Source: Arthrobacter crystallopoietes BAB-32 (lineage in GTDB: Bacteria > Actinomycetota > Actinomycetes > Actinomycetales > Micrococcaceae). Taken from it: a stretch of 39,798 nucleotides of DNA. Below the pieces are notes generated by a model. The model saw only the letters and a program-made list of their open reading frames with translations, made no database searches and was not told where the DNA came from. The stretch is from positions 1-39,798 of the forward strand of contig NZ_ANPE02000238.1 of the NCBI RefSeq assembly GCF_000328305.2, in the 5' to 3' direction. Shown piece after piece: positions 1 to 20,074 of the stretch. Made by a program: the position numbers and the translations under genes. Positions within the stretch are counted from its first letter, which is position 1. Each line of letters starts with the position of its first letter.

Positions 1-1472
1 AGCGCCTCCTCGGGGGTCAGCCCCTCGGCGGCGCCGCCGAGCAGGCGGCCGCCTTCGGTGCGGCGGTCCACGCTGGACTGAAGCGCGCGGCGGACGTTGT
101 TGTCCGCGACCGGCAGGTCGGAGGAGCCGGCGGGGCGGACTCCGGAGTCCACCAGCGAGCGCCCGCGGTAGAGCCAGCCTTCGCGGTCCGGCCCCATCAG
201 CGCGGCGAACTGGTCGCCGAGCGGGCCGATGAAGGAGGCCTGCGGGGTCACGCAGATCCCGGCGGCGGCGACGGCGGCGACCTGGTCCGGGCGGGCGATG
301 CCGAAGTGCTCGATCCGGTTGGGCAGCGCGTTGTGGCCGTAGCGGTCCTGGCAGGAGGTGATGATCTCGATGGCCAGGTCGATCGCGGCGTCGCCGATGG
401 CGTGCAGGGCGATCGGCCAGCCGGCCCGGTAGGCGGCGTCGATCCGTTCGCGGTAGGCCTCGGGGGTGTCGAGCAGGTACCCGGTGTTGTGCTGGTGTCC
501 GCAGTAGTCCTCGGTGACCGCGGCCGTGGCGCCGAGCAGCGAGCCGTCCATGAAGACCTTGATCGGGCCGAGCGAGACCCATTCGTCCCCGAAGCCGGCG
601 ACGGCGCCGAGGTCCAGGCCACGCCCGGAGCCGGTGCCGTGCATGTCGCAGGCGTTGGCTTCCAGCGGCCGGAGGGCGTCCAGTGCCGGCATGAGCTGGG
701 CGCGGGCGTGCAGCTTCCCGGCGCGCTTGGCGGCGAGGTAGGCCTGCACTTCGACGGGGCTGTGCCCGATCCAGCCGCCGCCGATGCCGGCCTCGGTGAA
801 ACTGGTGATGCCCTCGGCGGCGTAGCGGGTGGTCGCGGCGTCCAAGGCGTCGACGATCCGCTCCACCGGGTACGGCAGCAGCAGGTTCTGGATCAGCGCC
901 TGCGCTGACTCCTCCACCAGCCCGGTGGGGTTGCCGGCGGCATCGCGCACCACCGCGCCGCCGACCGGGTTCTCGAAGCCGGGCTCGAGGGCTCCGGCCA
1001 GGCGCAGGGTCGCCGTGTTGGTGATCGACGAGTGGCCCGAGGTGTGCCGGAGGTAGAGCGGCCGGTCCCCGGTGATGGCGTCCAGCCGGCGGATGTCGGG
1101 GAAGGCGCCGCCGTGGTGCTTGTGGTTGAATCCGGTGCCGTTCACCCAGATGTCCGGGGCGCCCCCGGGGAGAGCGTCCAGCCGGCGCACCTCGGCCTCA
1201 AGCAGTCCGTAGAGCTCCTCCAGCCCGCGGGCCTTGCTCAGGTCCACCGCGTCCAGGCCGAGTCCCCACCAGGTGGTGTGGCAGTGCGCGTCGATGAAGC
1301 CGGGCACCACAGTGGCGCCGTCCAGCCGGATGTTCCGGGCGGCGGTGCAGCCGTCGAGCTCCTCGTCGAAGCCGACGATCCGCCCGTGCAGCACGCCGAC
1401 GCTGTGGGCACGGTGCCGCTCGGGGTCGAGCGTGATGATGTCCGCGTCGCGGAGGATCAAATCCAGCTTCAT
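1..1472 (-). CDS. Amidohydrolase family 3 (YtcJ-like), 3' end outside window
   Basis: This reads as a metal-dependent amidohydrolase of the YtcJ/amidohydrolase-3 group, cytoplasmic, with unknown substrate. About 490 residues are visible; the C-terminus lies beyond the window start, and the family is usually about 540 aa. It opens MKLDLILRDADIITLD. The metal-binding motif GFIDAHCHTTWWG is near residue 60, HAIGDAAIDLA sits in the central barrel, and a late GSSDLPV segment matches the family's final metal-site Asp. The start ATG at 1470-1472 overlaps the TGA of the upstream ThDP enzyme in an ATGA, so the two are probably translationally coupled. Family is confident; substrate unknown. Confidence 0.85.
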   Translation of the reverse strand, partial: MKLDLILRDADIITLDPERHRAHSVGVLHGRIVGFDEELDGCTAARNIRLDGATVVPGFIDAHCHTTWWGLGLDAVDLSKARGLEELYGLLEAEVRRLDALPGGAPDIWVNGTGFNHKHHGGAFPDIRRLDAITGDRPLYLRHTSGHSSITNTATLRLAGALEPGFENPVGGAVVRDAAGNPTGLVEESAQALIQNLLLPYPVERIVDALDAATTRYAAEGITSFTEAGIGGGWIGHSPVEVQAYLAAKRAGKLHARAQLMPALDALRPLEANACDMHGTGSGRGLDLGAVAGFGDEWVSLGPIKVFMDGSLLGATAAVTEDYCGHQHNTGYLLDTPEAYRERIDAAYRAGWPIALHAIGDAAIDLAIEIITSCQDRYGHNALPNRIEHFGIARPDQVAAVAAAGICVTPQASFIGPLGDQFAALMGPDREGWLYRGRSLVDSGVRPAGSSDLPVADNNVRRALQSSVDRRTEGGRLLGGAAEGLTPEEA

Positions 1473-4704: not shown

Positions 4705-4837
4705 GCTGCCTCCGCACGTTGGTTTCATGCGCCGCCGCTGAACGGGTCGCCGGCGTATGGGAATTTGATGCACACCAGCATGGCAGAGTGCCGCTCGTCA
4801 CACCCGCACGGATCGTCGCGGGTTTGGAGGACTAAAA

Positions 4838-4851
4838 TGTGCTAAAGCACA
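4838..4851. promoter_or_regulatory. Palindromic operator candidate in divergent promoter region
   Basis: TGTGCT-AA-AGCACA is a perfect 6-bp inverted repeat flanked by A-runs. It lies in the 165-bp gap between the transporter and the PucR-type regulator genes, just upstream of the regulator's GGAGGG ribosome-binding site. It is a likely binding site for that regulator, by position and symmetry only. Confidence 0.5.
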
Positions 4852-4869
4852 AAAACGGAGGGTAATGAC

Positions 4870-15792: not shown

Positions 15793-18627
15793 CTAGCCGG
15801 CCTCCACAGCCATGTTGGCGAAGCGCGAGTAGTGGCCCTGGAAGCCAACCACAATGGTCTTCGTCGGACCATTACGGTGCTTGGCCACAATCACGTCTGC
15901 CTCGCCCGCCCGAGGCGACTCCTTGTCGTAGATGTCCTCACGGTGCAGCAGGATCACCATGTCCGCATCCTGCTCGATCGAGTTGTGGACGGCGATGCCG
16001 TTGGCAATGAAGTTGTGGTTCCCAAGCACTGTGGCGTCGAAAACTTCTTCCTCGCCGTCCGGAACGATGTTCAGGACTTCGTCCCACCGCAAGTCGTTAA
16101 TGGCTTCGACGTCCAGTTCCGCCCGATCAAGAACGGCAGTAACTGCTCCAAGTGCCGGCTGGGAGCTGTCTTCCATAATACTGCGGACGTCATTCCAAAC
16201 TCCCTCAGGAATCGACGGTACGGGAGCAGTTTCAGAACCACCGCGGATGGTTGCCAGCAGATCGTCCGCGACCTGTGTGGGTCCGGAGTGCGCGTTGATC
16301 TCCTGCAGGAACCTACGCTGGTCGTCCCCTTCCGAGATGAACAGTGTGAAGCCGGTCAGTGTAGGCGTAATTTCTGCGCTGATCCCGAAGCGAAGCAGCA
16401 ATCGCGAAACAGCCTCTACAACCAGTCGTGAACCGGAAGCGAAACTGATCGACCCCTGGCCGGTTCCGTCGAACGAGATCGCTCCGCCGACCGACCAAAG
16501 TTGGCCCAGGAACAGCGCGATCTGTTGCTTTGGCAGGGCGAACACTTCGTTGGGGATGAAGGCGATGGCATCGCTGACATGCCCGTCCTCAAGTTCGTAC
16601 TGCTCCGACATCGGGCCGCTGGAATTAGCGCCGAGGATCTTTGCCGCCGTGATGACCTGGCCGTCATCCCAGTGCGTGCGGAGCGCCGGACCGTTCACGT
16701 GGCGTGGCACTCCCAGCCGATCTCCAACCGTGAGTTCGCCGAGAGGCTTCCATCCTTCGTAGGTGAAGAATGGATGGTTGGCAGTTGCGCGGACAGTCTT
16801 CCCGGAAGCAAGCGTAAGCCGGTAGACGGGCTTAACTCCCGTGGAGAAGACGTGGGTGAGATGGCGCTCGACATAGCGCAGGCTGTCATCCAGAGACCAG
16901 ACCGGGACGTCGTTAGCACCGGAGGCGAAGAGCTCACCCATGGTGGTCTCGGCACCCGTGTCGGAGCGCAGCACCCGGGTGTCAGCGGTAAGGCAGCCGG
17001 ACTCACGGAGGTCCGAAACCATCGGCTTCTTGTCCGTACGCTGTTCGGAACCACGGTTCAGCTGCGAGAGCGCAATCACGGGCACCTCAAGCTCCTTAGC
17101 CAGGAGCTTAAGAGCACGGGAGAACTCCGAGACTTCCTGCTGGCGGGATTCGACGCGCTTGCCGGACGACATCAGCTGCAGATAGTCGAGCACGATCAGC
17201 TTCAGATCGTGCCGCTGCTTGAGCCGGCGGCACTTGGCACGGATTTCCATCAGTGACATGTTCGGGCTGTCGTCGATGAACAGGGGCGCATCATTCATCC
17301 GGCCCATCGTGGTCGCGATCTTGCCCCACTGCTCATCCTTGATAGTTCCCTTGCGCAGGTCCTGCAGGCCGATCGTGGCCTCAGCGGACAGCAGTCGCAT
17401 GGCGATCTCGTTGCGGCCCATTTCCAGCGAGAAGAAGACGGTGGTCATGTTGTGTTTGATCGCAGCCGACCGGGCAAAATCCAAAGCGAACGTCGAGTTG
17501 TGCGTCGGAATGAAGGAGCGCCCCGCCAGGTAGAGGTGAGATTCGTGGGCGACTTGGATACAGCGAACAGGAACACTAGGCACCTTCTCGATGGTCTCGA
17601 TCTTCCAAACGTCGCGCGATGCGAGGTCCGCATTCAGCGCGCCCGCTTGGTTGCGCACGAGAACGCCGAGGCCACTGCCCAATGAAGAATCGAGCTCCAT
17701 AGTGGTCGCGACGAAGGGTTTTTCATCGCCTTGGAACTCGACGAGCCACTCGTGCTCAGCGTCGGCGACAAGGACGCTGCCGTCGTCGAAAGTCACCTCA
17801 TAGCAGGGCCGGTCCTGCATGACTTCGGTGGCGGCAACAACCAGAGTCGGCGTGCCGTCCGCAGCCAGCACTTCGTCTCCGGCTTGAACCTCGCCCATGG
17901 TTGTCCAGCCGGTCGGTGTCGGCAAGGGCGTATCCAAGGCGAGTGCCTTGCCCACGGCCGGGCGCGCGGCGATGACGATCATCTGGCCGGCGTGGAGGCC
18001 CTGGGTCAGCTCGTCGAGTTCGTAGAAGCCGGTTGGCACGCCGGTCATGCCTTCGCCGCGGTGACCGGCGGATTCGATCTCGTCGACGGTCCCCTCGATG
18101 ATGTCCTTCAGGGGCACGTAGTCTTCGGCGGAACGCCGTTCAGCGACGGTGTAGATCTCGGCCTGTGCCTGGTTGACGATGTCGTCGACCTCGCCGTCCT
18201 GGGAGTAGCCCAGCTGGACGATCTTGGTCCCGGCATCGACGAGGCGGCGGAGCACAGCGCGTTCGCGGACGATCTCGGCGTAGAAGCCGGCGTTGGCTGC
18301 GGTCGGGACGGACTGGATAAGGGTGTGCAGGTAGGCCGGTCCGCCGATGCGGGAAATCTCGCCGCGCTTGGTCAGCAGGTCGGAGACGGTGACCGCATCC
18401 GCCGGCTCGCCGCGCCCGTAGAGGTCGATGATCGCCTCGTAGATGCTCTCGTGCGCGGGACGGTAGAAGTCATTGCCGCGGAGGACCTCAACCACGTCCG
18501 CAATGGCATCCTTGGAGAGCATCATGCCGCCGAGCACGGACTGCTCGGCCACGATGTCCTGCGGTGGCGTCCGCGCGAAATCCGGTTCCCGACTGGTTTG
18601 TGCGGAGTCCGAATGAACTGCTGTCAC
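15793..18627 (-). CDS. dnaB: Replicative DNA helicase DnaB with two inteins
   Basis: The precursor is 944 aa. Removing inteins of 150 and 338 aa leaves 456 aa, the normal DnaB length. The extein has the N-terminal DnaB domain (QSVLGGMMLSKDAIADV), the P-loop split as ARPAVGK / STFALDFAR, Walker B LIVLDYLQLM, then LSQLNRGSEQR. It unwinds DNA ahead of the replisome. The GTG at 18627 is chosen because the downstream frame (MTAVHSDSAQ if read as Met) fits actinobacterial DnaB starts; a longer frame to 18699 exists. Splicing should restore K-S-T in the P-loop, so helicase activity depends on it. The 5' region carries DnaA-box-like repeats. Confidence 0.95.
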   Translation of the reverse strand: MTAVHSDSAQTSREPDFARTPPQDIVAEQSVLGGMMLSKDAIADVVEVLRGNDFYRPAHESIYEAIIDLYGRGEPADAVTVSDLLTKRGEISRIGGPAYLHTLIQSVPTAANAGFYAEIVRERAVLRRLVDAGTKIVQLGYSQDGEVDDIVNQAQAEIYTVAERRSAEDYVPLKDIIEGTVDEIESAGHRGEGMTGVPTGFYELDELTQGLHAGQMIVIAARPAVGKALALDTPLPTPTGWTTMGEVQAGDEVLAADGTPTLVVAATEVMQDRPCYEVTFDDGSVLVADAEHEWLVEFQGDEKPFVATTMELDSSLGSGLGVLVRNQAGALNADLASRDVWKIETIEKVPSVPVRCIQVAHESHLYLAGRSFIPTHNSTFALDFARSAAIKHNMTTVFFSLEMGRNEIAMRLLSAEATIGLQDLRKGTIKDEQWGKIATTMGRMNDAPLFIDDSPNMSLMEIRAKCRRLKQRHDLKLIVLDYLQLMSSGKRVESRQQEVSEFSRALKLLAKELEVPVIALSQLNRGSEQRTDKKPMVSDLRESGCLTADTRVLRSDTGAETTMGELFASGANDVPVWSLDDSLRYVERHLTHVFSTGVKPVYRLTLASGKTVRATANHPFFTYEGWKPLGELTVGDRLGVPRHVNGPALRTHWDDGQVITAAKILGANSSGPMSEQYELEDGHVSDAIAFIPNEVFALPKQQIALFLGQLWSVGGAISFDGTGQGSISFASGSRLVVEAVSRLLLRFGISAEITPTLTGFTLFISEGDDQRRFLQEINAHSGPTQVADDLLATIRGGSETAPVPSIPEGVWNDVRSIMEDSSQPALGAVTAVLDRAELDVEAINDLRWDEVLNIVPDGEEEVFDATVLGNHNFIANGIAVHNSIEQDADMVILLHREDIYDKESPRAGEADVIVAKHRNGPTKTIVVGFQGHYSRFANMAVEAG
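15982..16995 (-). other. Intein 2 of DnaB (class 1, with degenerate endonuclease)
   Basis: 338 aa, inserted at DLRESG / S. It starts with Cys (CLTADTRVL, block A), has block B ATANHPFFTYEGW, and ends FDATVLGNHNFIAN then GIAVHN, followed by extein Ser. The middle carries one LAGLIDADG-like segment (ALFLGQLWSVGGAI, codons 16477-16518) without the usual catalytic Asp, and no clear second motif, so the homing endonuclease looks inactive. Splicing residues (Cys1, block B His, HN at the end) are all present. Confidence 0.9.
17497..17946 (-). other. Intein 1 of DnaB (class 3 mini-intein in the P-loop)
   Basis: 150 aa, inserted in the Walker A motif between K and S. It begins with Ala (ALALDTPLPTPTGW) rather than Cys or Ser. 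Instead of the N-terminal nucleophile, the class 3 W-C-T set is present: Trp at intein position 67 (EHEW), Cys at 129 (VRCI) and Thr at 148 (IPTHN). It ends in His-Asn, with extein Ser next. No endonuclease domain fits in the length. Class 3 inteins are known from phage and bacterial DnaB proteins. Confidence 0.88.
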
Positions 18628-19224
18628 CGCTGCCTGCTTTCTTGTCCTCAATGGTGCTGCGTGCGCCGGCTCATTCCTCCTGCGGGACCGGCTGATCATT
18701 GTCTATCAGCCGCTTCCGACACTTCCGCCCGTCGGCCGGATCAGGGCATGGCGAAGCCCTGGCCGGCACCGGCCGATAGAGGAATCCTCAGTCACGTTAG
18801 TCCTCTTTAAGCGCTGGACAAAGCGAGTTATCCACCGCTCCTGTGGATACATTGTGGATTAGGCGGCGTGTCTTGTGCACAGGGTGTGTGGACAACTGTG
18901 GAAAACCTTGTTAACTCGCGAGTAACCTGAGGCTGACCTGCGGAAATAAAGAACACAGCATGTGGAGGAAAGATTTTTTCGTTCCCGTTTCTTCCACAAC
19001 TGGGGAGTTGACAATCCCCCCAAAGAGCCCTAGAACCGGTTTATCCACCCGTTATCCACAGGTCCAATGTGGGCATTCGCGTGTTTAACCTCGCCGTCTC
19101 CAGCGGCTGGCCTGCGCCGATACCCGCCATGCATCCTCAAGCGGGCCGGACGGCCACCGCGGCTCACTTCCGCGTCCCGCCCCGGTAACTCCGCTCGTCG
19201 TCGAACGCCCGTAGGATTAATCAC
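18628..19224. other. Non-coding region upstream of dnaB with DnaA-box-like cluster
   Basis: Within 18828-19060 are nine 9-mers equal or close to TTGTCCACA/TTATCCACA on both strands. Exact copies are TGTGGACAA (18887-18895) and TTATCCACA (19052-19060). Near copies start at 18828, 18842, 18853, 18873, 18897, about 18989 and 19041. A less GC-rich stretch (18941-18990, containing a run of six T) lies between them. No gene is seen. It may be a DnaA-titrating or dnaB-regulating site, and possibly an origin-like element; oriC would normally lie next to dnaA/dnaN, which are not here. Confidence 0.6.
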
Positions 19225-19315
19225 ATGGAGTCCTTCCTGATCCCCCTGCTCATTGTCGTCGTCGTAGTAGCGCTGGGGCTGCTGTTCGTGAAGCATCTGA
19301 GCAAGCGGCCCGCGA

Positions 19316-19331
19316 GGGAGAACGACGGCGG
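19316..19331 (+). repeat. Dispersed ACGACGG motif, weaker copy 8
   Basis: GGGAGAACGACGGCGG, coding R-E-N-D-G-G just after the membrane helix of the frame-shifted gene. The A/T flank is weak. Confidence 0.4.
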
Positions 19332-19669
19332 AGGGCGGGGACGGTCTGCCAGGGGGCCGGCGGCGGTGGCTTCGCGCGAGGAGGCGGTGAGGGCCAGCGC
19401 ACGGCTGAACCAGCAGCAGCATTCGGCGGTGTACGCGCTGCTGGCGCGTGGCGATGCTCTGAACGCGATCATGGAGTACCGGAAGGCGACCGGAGCCAAG
19501 CTGCGCGAGGCCGCCACCGCGATCGCGAGCATGTCGACCTATCCGCAGCCGTACGGTGCGGCACCTGTGGACGACGCGGCGCCGGCTGACGGGCCAGCGG
19601 GCCGGACAGATCCCTCGGCTGGACGGGGGCGGGCCGGCAGACCGAACGGCGGAGAGCGGTCCGGCGGCT

Positions 19670-19703
19670 GCAAGCCCGGGTGGCGTGGCAAGCCCGGGTG
19701 GCG
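19670..19703 (+). repeat. Tandem direct repeat in linker
   Basis: GCAAGCCCGGGTGGCG occurs at 19670-19685 and 19688-19703. The 18-bp period keeps frame and encodes two S-P-G-G units in the linker of the frame-shifted gene. Confidence 0.75.
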
Positions 19704-20074
19704 GAGCGGGTGCGGGCGGCGGAGCAGGCACCGCCCCGCGCTTCGAGGCCGCAAGCGAGCCCAACTTGTCCAAGCCGCAGGCCAAGGAGCCGGCCGGCGG
19801 GTACCGCTACCGAGCGATCGTCTCCCAAGGCGACGAGATCCGCGAGATCGCCAGCACGCGGCTGAACGACGAGGTCTTCGGGCAAATCAAGGACACCGCG
19901 CTGACCGGTGACCGCGAGGCGGCCGTCCGGCTATTGATGGAGCATTCGGAAGCTGACGAGCAGCAGGCGCGGGACTTCGTCCGGCTGATCCAGCCTGAGC
20001 CGCCCGCCGGCGCGAAGGGCTGAACGCCCGGTTCGGGGGCGCATTCTGTCTGGGCCATCTGGCACACTCTAGCC

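Follow-up and report, generated by a model that had tools for sequence, protein, structure and literature searches.

The non-coding region upstream of the helicase gene dnaB in Arthrobacter crystallopoietes is read here as a dnaB control region; judged from sequence, it is probably a DnaA-responsive promoter that tunes transcription of dnaB, with activation somewhat likelier than repression. The window, i.e. the whole stretch of 39,798 nucleotides that was analysed, corresponds to one 39.8-kb contig in a draft assembly of 4.35 Mb, in which dnaA lies on another contig, and the relatives of its DnaB led us to judge the host to be an Arthrobacter-like member of the Micrococcaceae. In the proposed mechanism, DnaA protomers would line up along one face of the DNA by binding the boxes, many of which are tandemly paired at a distance of roughly one helical turn, and bound DnaA would sit beside a dnaB promoter of the principal-sigma type. 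From this array DnaA could tune dnaB transcription, so that the supply of helicase would follow the level or the nucleotide state of DnaA. Both the binding of DnaA in A. crystallopoietes and the dnaB promoter itself are predicted, and the supply of helicase is probably tied to DnaA. Of the roles suggested in a preliminary description of this DNA, a link between dnaB expression and DnaA fits best, given the class-wide retention of the array, the adjacent promoter-like motif and the published binding of DnaA in mycobacteria.

The DnaA-box cluster is real. The stretch 18828-19060 contains eight distinct matches to TTRTCCACA, each with no more than one mismatch, on both strands, and two of them (18887 on the minus strand and 19052 on the plus strand) are exact. 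Across the window, 15 near-consensus sites (at most one mismatch) were found against 5.4 expected from dinucleotide shuffles, none of 100 shuffles reaching 15, and the densest 233 bp held 8 sites, compared with a maximum of 3 in 200 order-3 Markov simulations of the window. The cluster noticed in the preliminary description is therefore confirmed, as are its spread over both strands and its two exact sites, although the count is eight and not the "nine or so" given there. The GC-poorer tract it placed within the cluster was also found (GC 0.45 at 18900-18999 compared with 0.6-0.7 in the genes on both sides), and the neighbour is, as it stated, dnaB and not dnaA. Genome-wide, there are 49 exact TTRTCCACA sites compared with 9 for the reversed control pattern, and in this list of 49 exact sites the only ones less than 400 bp apart are at the dnaB locus, at C176:6765-7076 and downstream of dnaA on C256.

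The dnaB gene is carried on the minus strand by a 968-aa, intein-containing ORF (15793-18699; Pfam DnaB 2.3e-34, DnaB_C 2e-94, Intein_splicing 8.1e-24). Its start codon is likely to be the GTG at 18627 and not the ATG at 18699, because the AGAAAGCAGGCAGCGGTG start context is kept across the genus alignment (a single base is changed in 1 of 10 genomes) and stop codons occur inside the matched frame in four congeners. The array therefore begins about 200 bp and ends about 435 bp upstream of the likely start. A predicted dnaB promoter, based on the sequence, the genus alignment and the geometry in relatives, lies between them on the minus strand, with a -10 of TAACGT (18794-18799) and a -35 of TTGTCC (18816-18821) separated by a 16-bp spacer; TAnnGT is found at the -10 in 10 of 10 genomes of the genus alignment. 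This -35 lies 6 bp downstream of the last box, the promoter-proximal TTATCCACC (18828-18836, plus strand). Further from dnaB follow GTATCCACA (18842-18850, minus) and TAATCCACA (18853-18861, minus), which form a double box with a 2-bp gap, then the near-palindromic TTGTGCACA (18873-18881, plus), the exact TTGTCCACA (18887-18895, minus) and TTTTCCACA (18897-18905, minus). A distal double box, supported by the site scan and the genus alignment, consists of a second copy of TTATCCACC (19041-19049, plus) and the exact TTATCCACA (19052-19060, plus); TGTGGATAAC at this exact box is present in 9 of the 10 genomes, the tenth having one base changed.

A scan with E. coli-type promoter (sigma-70 consensus) and terminator models found nothing, and so did not report the predicted dnaB promoter. 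In Streptomyces coelicolor, dnaB is listed among the genes of the HrdB regulon, and HrdB promoters are described as having a weak or absent -35 (PMC6344877). In a class-wide draw of 56 loci, 24 carried TTGnnn-16..18-TAnnnT on the dnaB strand no more than 40 bp downstream of a box, while the opposite strand gave no such case in any locus, and the gap between box and motif was 4-7 or 16-20 bp in 23 of these 24 instances; the remaining 32 loci showed no promoter motif by this simple pattern. With a looser spacer of 15-19 bp, applied to the dnaB strand alone in a set of 59 loci, 37 of 41 motif instances had a gap of 5-9 or 18-20 bp.

Across the ten genomes of the genus alignment (own genome included), conservation within the gap is highest at the promoter-proximal boxes and at a few other stretches, which answers favourably the check on 9-mer conservation against the flanking genes that had been proposed for this cluster. 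Among 78 named relatives (80 loci less L022, which has no upstream DNA, and L063, a Spirosomataceae locus with 0 boxes), the 700 bp upstream of dnaB contained at least one site in 77, at least two in 71 and at least three in 59, against a background of 0.13 near-consensus sites per 700 bp, and 100 permuted motifs gave at least two sites in at most 12 of the 78. The densest 250 bp of the whole locus adjoins dnaB in 70 of the 78. As these relatives were picked by DnaB similarity, the test was repeated on the class-wide draw (59 less own genome, G166 with no match and G179 at a contig edge; 10 of the 56 loci were already in an earlier 53-genome sample). At least one box was present in 54 of the 56 loci, at least two in 46 and at least three in 32, with 2 loci boxless, and 60 permuted motifs gave at least two sites in at most 3. 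The earlier sample, taken from 145 matching genomes, comprised all 11 of the class (own excluded) and 42 from outside it, one per family, and at least two boxes were found in 5 of these 42. Enrichment of 8-mers upstream of dnaB, with no preset motif, also ranked DnaA-box words first: TATCCACA occurred in 34 of 59 loci against 0.4 expected and TCCACAGG in 47 of 59 against 2.1 expected. Streptomyces, which accounts for 24 of the 78 relative loci, was reduced to 5 loci in the 59-locus sets.

The surroundings of the array vary. Upstream neighbour genes were chosen by a GC3 heuristic in 21 loci, and the ten ORFs scanned included three MatE, two L9, one glucosamine-isomerase-like, one MarR-like and one Condensation match, with two unmatched. 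The genes dnaA and dnaB are about 36 kb apart in G071, compared with about 241 kb in the congener G002 and about 261 kb in the congener G001. As the neighbours and the distance to dnaA vary while the array stays, the array mostly travels with dnaB. It can also persist apart from it: in Nesterenkonia sp. LB17 (L065:1920-2160) intervening ORFs place the core of the array (TTGTGCACAAGACACGCC included) about 3 kb upstream of dnaB, and the ORF directly before dnaB has a Condensation domain. In Rothia endophytica (L064), no near-consensus box was found in the 900 bp upstream of dnaB, an apparent loss of the array within the family.

The boxes are arranged on a helical lattice. In the 59 loci, start-to-start distances between tandem boxes peaked at 11-12, 21-23, 32-34, 43-45 and 54-56 bp, with little between. 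The best period was 10.8 bp both in 33 hand-picked loci (205 pairs; R 0.79, maximum of the uniform null 0.24) and in the class draw (240 pairs; R 0.76, null maximum 0.23), although the arrays are related by descent and these statistics overstate their independence. The 33 loci were meant as one per genus, two being identified to family only and one as an actinobacterium. This 10.8-bp period is common to arrays that differ in the number and order of their boxes. A universal fixed template with boxes at -25, -14 and 0 fitted only some Arthrobacter and some Streptomyces, and the lattice was adopted instead.

Two further conserved elements are interspersed with the boxes, and neither is a DnaA box. 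The CAGGTCA element, which lies within TTTCCGCAGGTCAG (18933-18946, minus strand), was found upstream of dnaB in 42 of the 78 relatives on either strand, against a background of 0.13 per 700 bp; it was present on the dnaB strand in 20 of the 56 class-draw loci, and 4 of the 42 loci from outside the class have it. Counting one-letter variants as well, 12 of the 33 hand-picked loci contain it. In 11 of these 12, boxes with at most two mismatches lie about 12, 24, 36, 47 or 58 bp (some 79-80 bp) downstream of CAGGTCA, a descriptive count with no null model, and in 8 of the 12 a TCCACA-type word lies 26-27 bp upstream. The own genome holds one exact copy of the extended TTTCCGCAGGTCAG, at dnaB; as 51 matches with at most two mismatches compare with 36 for the reversed control, the exact copy alone is informative. 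We consider that CAGGTCA is probably bound by a second factor besides DnaA. The other element, GACACGCC (18865-18872, minus strand), is present in 10 of 10 genomes of the genus alignment, own included, and upstream of dnaB in 26 of the 78 relatives (background 0.03); WhiA is a possible candidate for binding it. The two elements as general companions of DnaA clusters were ruled out by their distribution in the own dnaA (L002) and C176 (L003) stretches: GACACGCC is absent from both, and CAGGTCA, absent from L003, has three copies in L002, within the dnaA ORF and ORFs further downstream.

The closest known system is that of mycobacteria. Hicks et al. 2020 reported five DnaA regions in M. tuberculosis, with homologues of all five in M. 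smegmatis by ChIP-seq; DnaA bound the region in front of dnaB both in vitro and in vivo, and the M. tuberculosis DnaA mutant I282T showed less binding there and lower dnaB expression (PMC7738170). The window is like M. tuberculosis dnaB (Rv0057) and its M. smegmatis homologue in position, homologous gene, DnaA boxes and class (PMC7738170), and, as they do, it has clustered DnaA boxes in the gap before dnaB. The published binding thus makes the locus a homologue of a known DnaA target. The two differ in density, with 1 to 3 near-consensus boxes in six mycobacterial loci and 8 in the window, and the available portion of PMC7738170 does not describe the box architecture, the lattice or CAGGTCA at dnaB for mycobacteria. 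In the literature searched, from which subscription journals were mostly outside, only PMC7738170 joined "DnaA box" with "upstream of dnaB", and no prior description of the class-wide array, the lattice or CAGGTCA at dnaB was found. What is new compared with the mycobacterial work is therefore the class-wide conservation, the lattice, the promoter geometry and the CAGGTCA element.

The own genome also contains clusters elsewhere. Five near-consensus boxes lie upstream of dnaA and three downstream, where two abutting boxes are followed by an AT-rich stretch resembling known origins, and the ORF beyond them reads as dnaN. On contig C176, box clusters lie between a rhomboid gene and crgA, at a distance of about 2-5 kb from the latter and with other genes in the interval. 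These C176 clusters are a possible counterpart of the M. tuberculosis DnaA site at Rv0010c-Rv0011c, Rv0011c being crgA. On the same contig (L003, C176:4500-10510), box triplets made of TTATCCACC or TTATCCACG, TTATACACA and TTATCCACA are repeated about 303 bp apart (2144-2569 and 4730-4864). The genome therefore has counterparts of three of the published mycobacterial DnaA regions (dnaB, oriC and upstream of dnaA) and probably of a fourth on C176 (PMC7738170), the crgA correspondence being likely although genes intervene.

Outside the class, E. coli DnaA in vivo prefers tandem boxes with 2-3 bp between them, which is 11-12 bp from start to start, and the double box of the nrdAB promoter has the same spacing as the tandem boxes here (PMC11317965). 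The E. coli nrdA control, measured in the same way, gave a 12-bp double box, which in our own reading of the sequence directly precedes the -35. In the window, by contrast, the boxes are stacked over several turns and a distance of 20 bp, which includes the inverted box 18828, separates the double box 18842/18853 from the predicted -35. The Caulobacter dnaB belongs to the DnaA regulon (PMC8203912, citing Hottes 2005); predicted boxes upstream and, in Caulobacter, DnaA-dependent expression make the two genes alike, whereas the phylum is different; the comparison covers the presence of boxes and the expression.

DnaA could instead repress dnaB, as a brake resembling autoregulation, or could chiefly control the divergent gene, and we regard this as possible rather than probable. 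Several bacteria have a dnaA promoter that is bound and autoregulated by DnaA itself (PMC8203912), and three of the ten aligned genus genomes (L092, L093 and L094) have an extra box between the -35 and the -10, a place suiting a repressor. Because of this extra box, we put activation only slightly ahead of repression, a little closer to even than we otherwise would have. In the window, however, no box of at most one mismatch overlaps the predicted -35 or -10, and the concurrent fall of binding and dnaB mRNA in M. tuberculosis is not what a repressor would be expected to give (PMC7738170). The divergent ORF (19225-19911, plus strand) encodes 228 aa of no recognised family, a Pfam search having returned no match, and has a putative -35 of TTGACA (19008-19013), partly conserved in the genus, and a putative -10 of TAGAAC (19031-19036). 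It could also be a target, as the two boxes of the distal double box sit at its putative start, but the upstream neighbour varies across the class while the array is mostly constant. A datA-like sink for DnaA, to which the dnaB promoter would be incidental, is unlikely. It could account for the congener (complete genome G002, sampled as 20 pieces of 20 kb, i.e. 400 kb, around dnaB and dnaA), in which the clusters of at least three boxes per 250 bp were only those at dnaB (11 sites, the densest), flanking dnaA (5 on each side) and some 15 kb away from it (7 and 4, the last pair being probably the crgA region), and for the one Nesterenkonia genome that keeps the array away from dnaB. Yet the array accompanies dnaB and keeps no fixed distance to dnaA, and a sink needs neither a helical phase nor a preferred distance to a promoter motif. 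The essential boxes of datA also share one direction (PMC5742627), whereas those of the window point in both; in datA an IHF site goes with them.

The proximal boxes resemble a DARS, on which ADP-DnaA would assemble and be recharged with ATP. Box I (18828, plus) is opposite to boxes II (18842, minus) and III (18853, minus), with spacings of 14 and 11 bp, and no such triplet occurred in 1125 background windows. In E. coli, DARS1 lies between bioD and uvrB, and triplets in the DARS1 and DARS2 regions, measured in the same way, gave 14 and 12. The opposite orientation and the equal spacing are the core feature of both (PMC5742627), DARS2 lying upstream of mutH (PMC11317965). The window shares with them the layout of one box opposite to two tandem ones and the first spacing of 14 bp, but differs in the second spacing (11 and not 12), in lying in a promoter region and in being known from sequence. 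Only 7 of the 78 relatives have a 14/11-12 triplet with a total mismatch of at most 4, and 14 is not the preferred first spacing, as 12 occurs in 24 and 13 in 21 of the 78, in part owing to the near-palindromic TTGTGCACA box. Non-palindromic inverted pairs most often have a spacing of 14 or 35 (each in 19 of the 78 loci; Streptomyces contributes 24 of the 78). The own clusters upstream of dnaA, on C176 and downstream of dnaA are without the triplet (mismatch totals 5 to 7). The likeness is therefore taken as a lead and not as membership, the triplet being restricted to certain lineages, and a DARS-like role as the main function is improbable; titration or reactivation may be a side role of the array.

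A secondary or ancestral replication origin, another suggestion of the preliminary description, is not supported and is very improbable, in spite of the dense boxes and the GC-poorer tract. Box clusters and origin-like sequence flank dnaA instead, and the array keeps with dnaB and has a promoter-like motif beside it. In the congener G002, most 20-kb pieces up to 930 kb have a negative GC skew and most of those beyond have a positive one, dnaA being at 923 kb; the signal is weak and has exceptions on either side (e.g. +0.029 at 830 kb and -0.018 at 1030 kb), and no clear change was seen at dnaB (682 kb) in the sampled 400 kb. The skew check proposed in that description thus places the turn, weakly, near dnaA rather than dnaB, and the array at dnaB lies neither next to dnaA/dnaN nor at a skew switch, the features of oriC.

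If the DnaA-responsive control of dnaB is right, the initiator would set the supply of the helicase that it loads, through a control element kept across a class to which Streptomyces, Arthrobacter and mycobacteria belong. The ordered boxes would also offer a ready system for the formation of DnaA oligomers outside origins, and the conserved CAGGTCA and GACACGCC hint at further partners. The class range of the array resembles that of the DnaA domain I dimer, reported in 2026 as conserved across Actinomycetes and less clear in the wider phylum (PMC13270200); a link between the two is testable and may or may not exist. A more speculative possibility, which we hold only tentatively, is that the dnaB control region of Actinomycetes is an ancient composite, in which a one-face lattice of DnaA and a factor at CAGGTCA (perhaps with a third at GACACGCC), in step with the lattice, would switch the supply of helicase with the DnaA cycle, some lineages carrying a DnaA-recharging DARS-type triplet as well. 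If true, initiator and helicase would be joined in a class-specific circuit that has a missing regulator.

Other features of the locus were observed. A known RNA leader element is not supported, as an Rfam search of 18500-19400 gave no match at E up to 1. At 18910-18924, upstream of the array, GTTAAC lies beside GTAAC-like half sites, which presumably resemble response-regulator repeats and are retained in several genus genomes. The DnaB protein itself apparently carries two insertions, one at residues ~253-401 and the other a LAGLIDADG intein at ~580-906. Six congeners align up to residue 252 and then from 402-433, with a gap over the first insertion, which follows the Walker A motif, opens with ALALDTPLP and probably represents a small intein.
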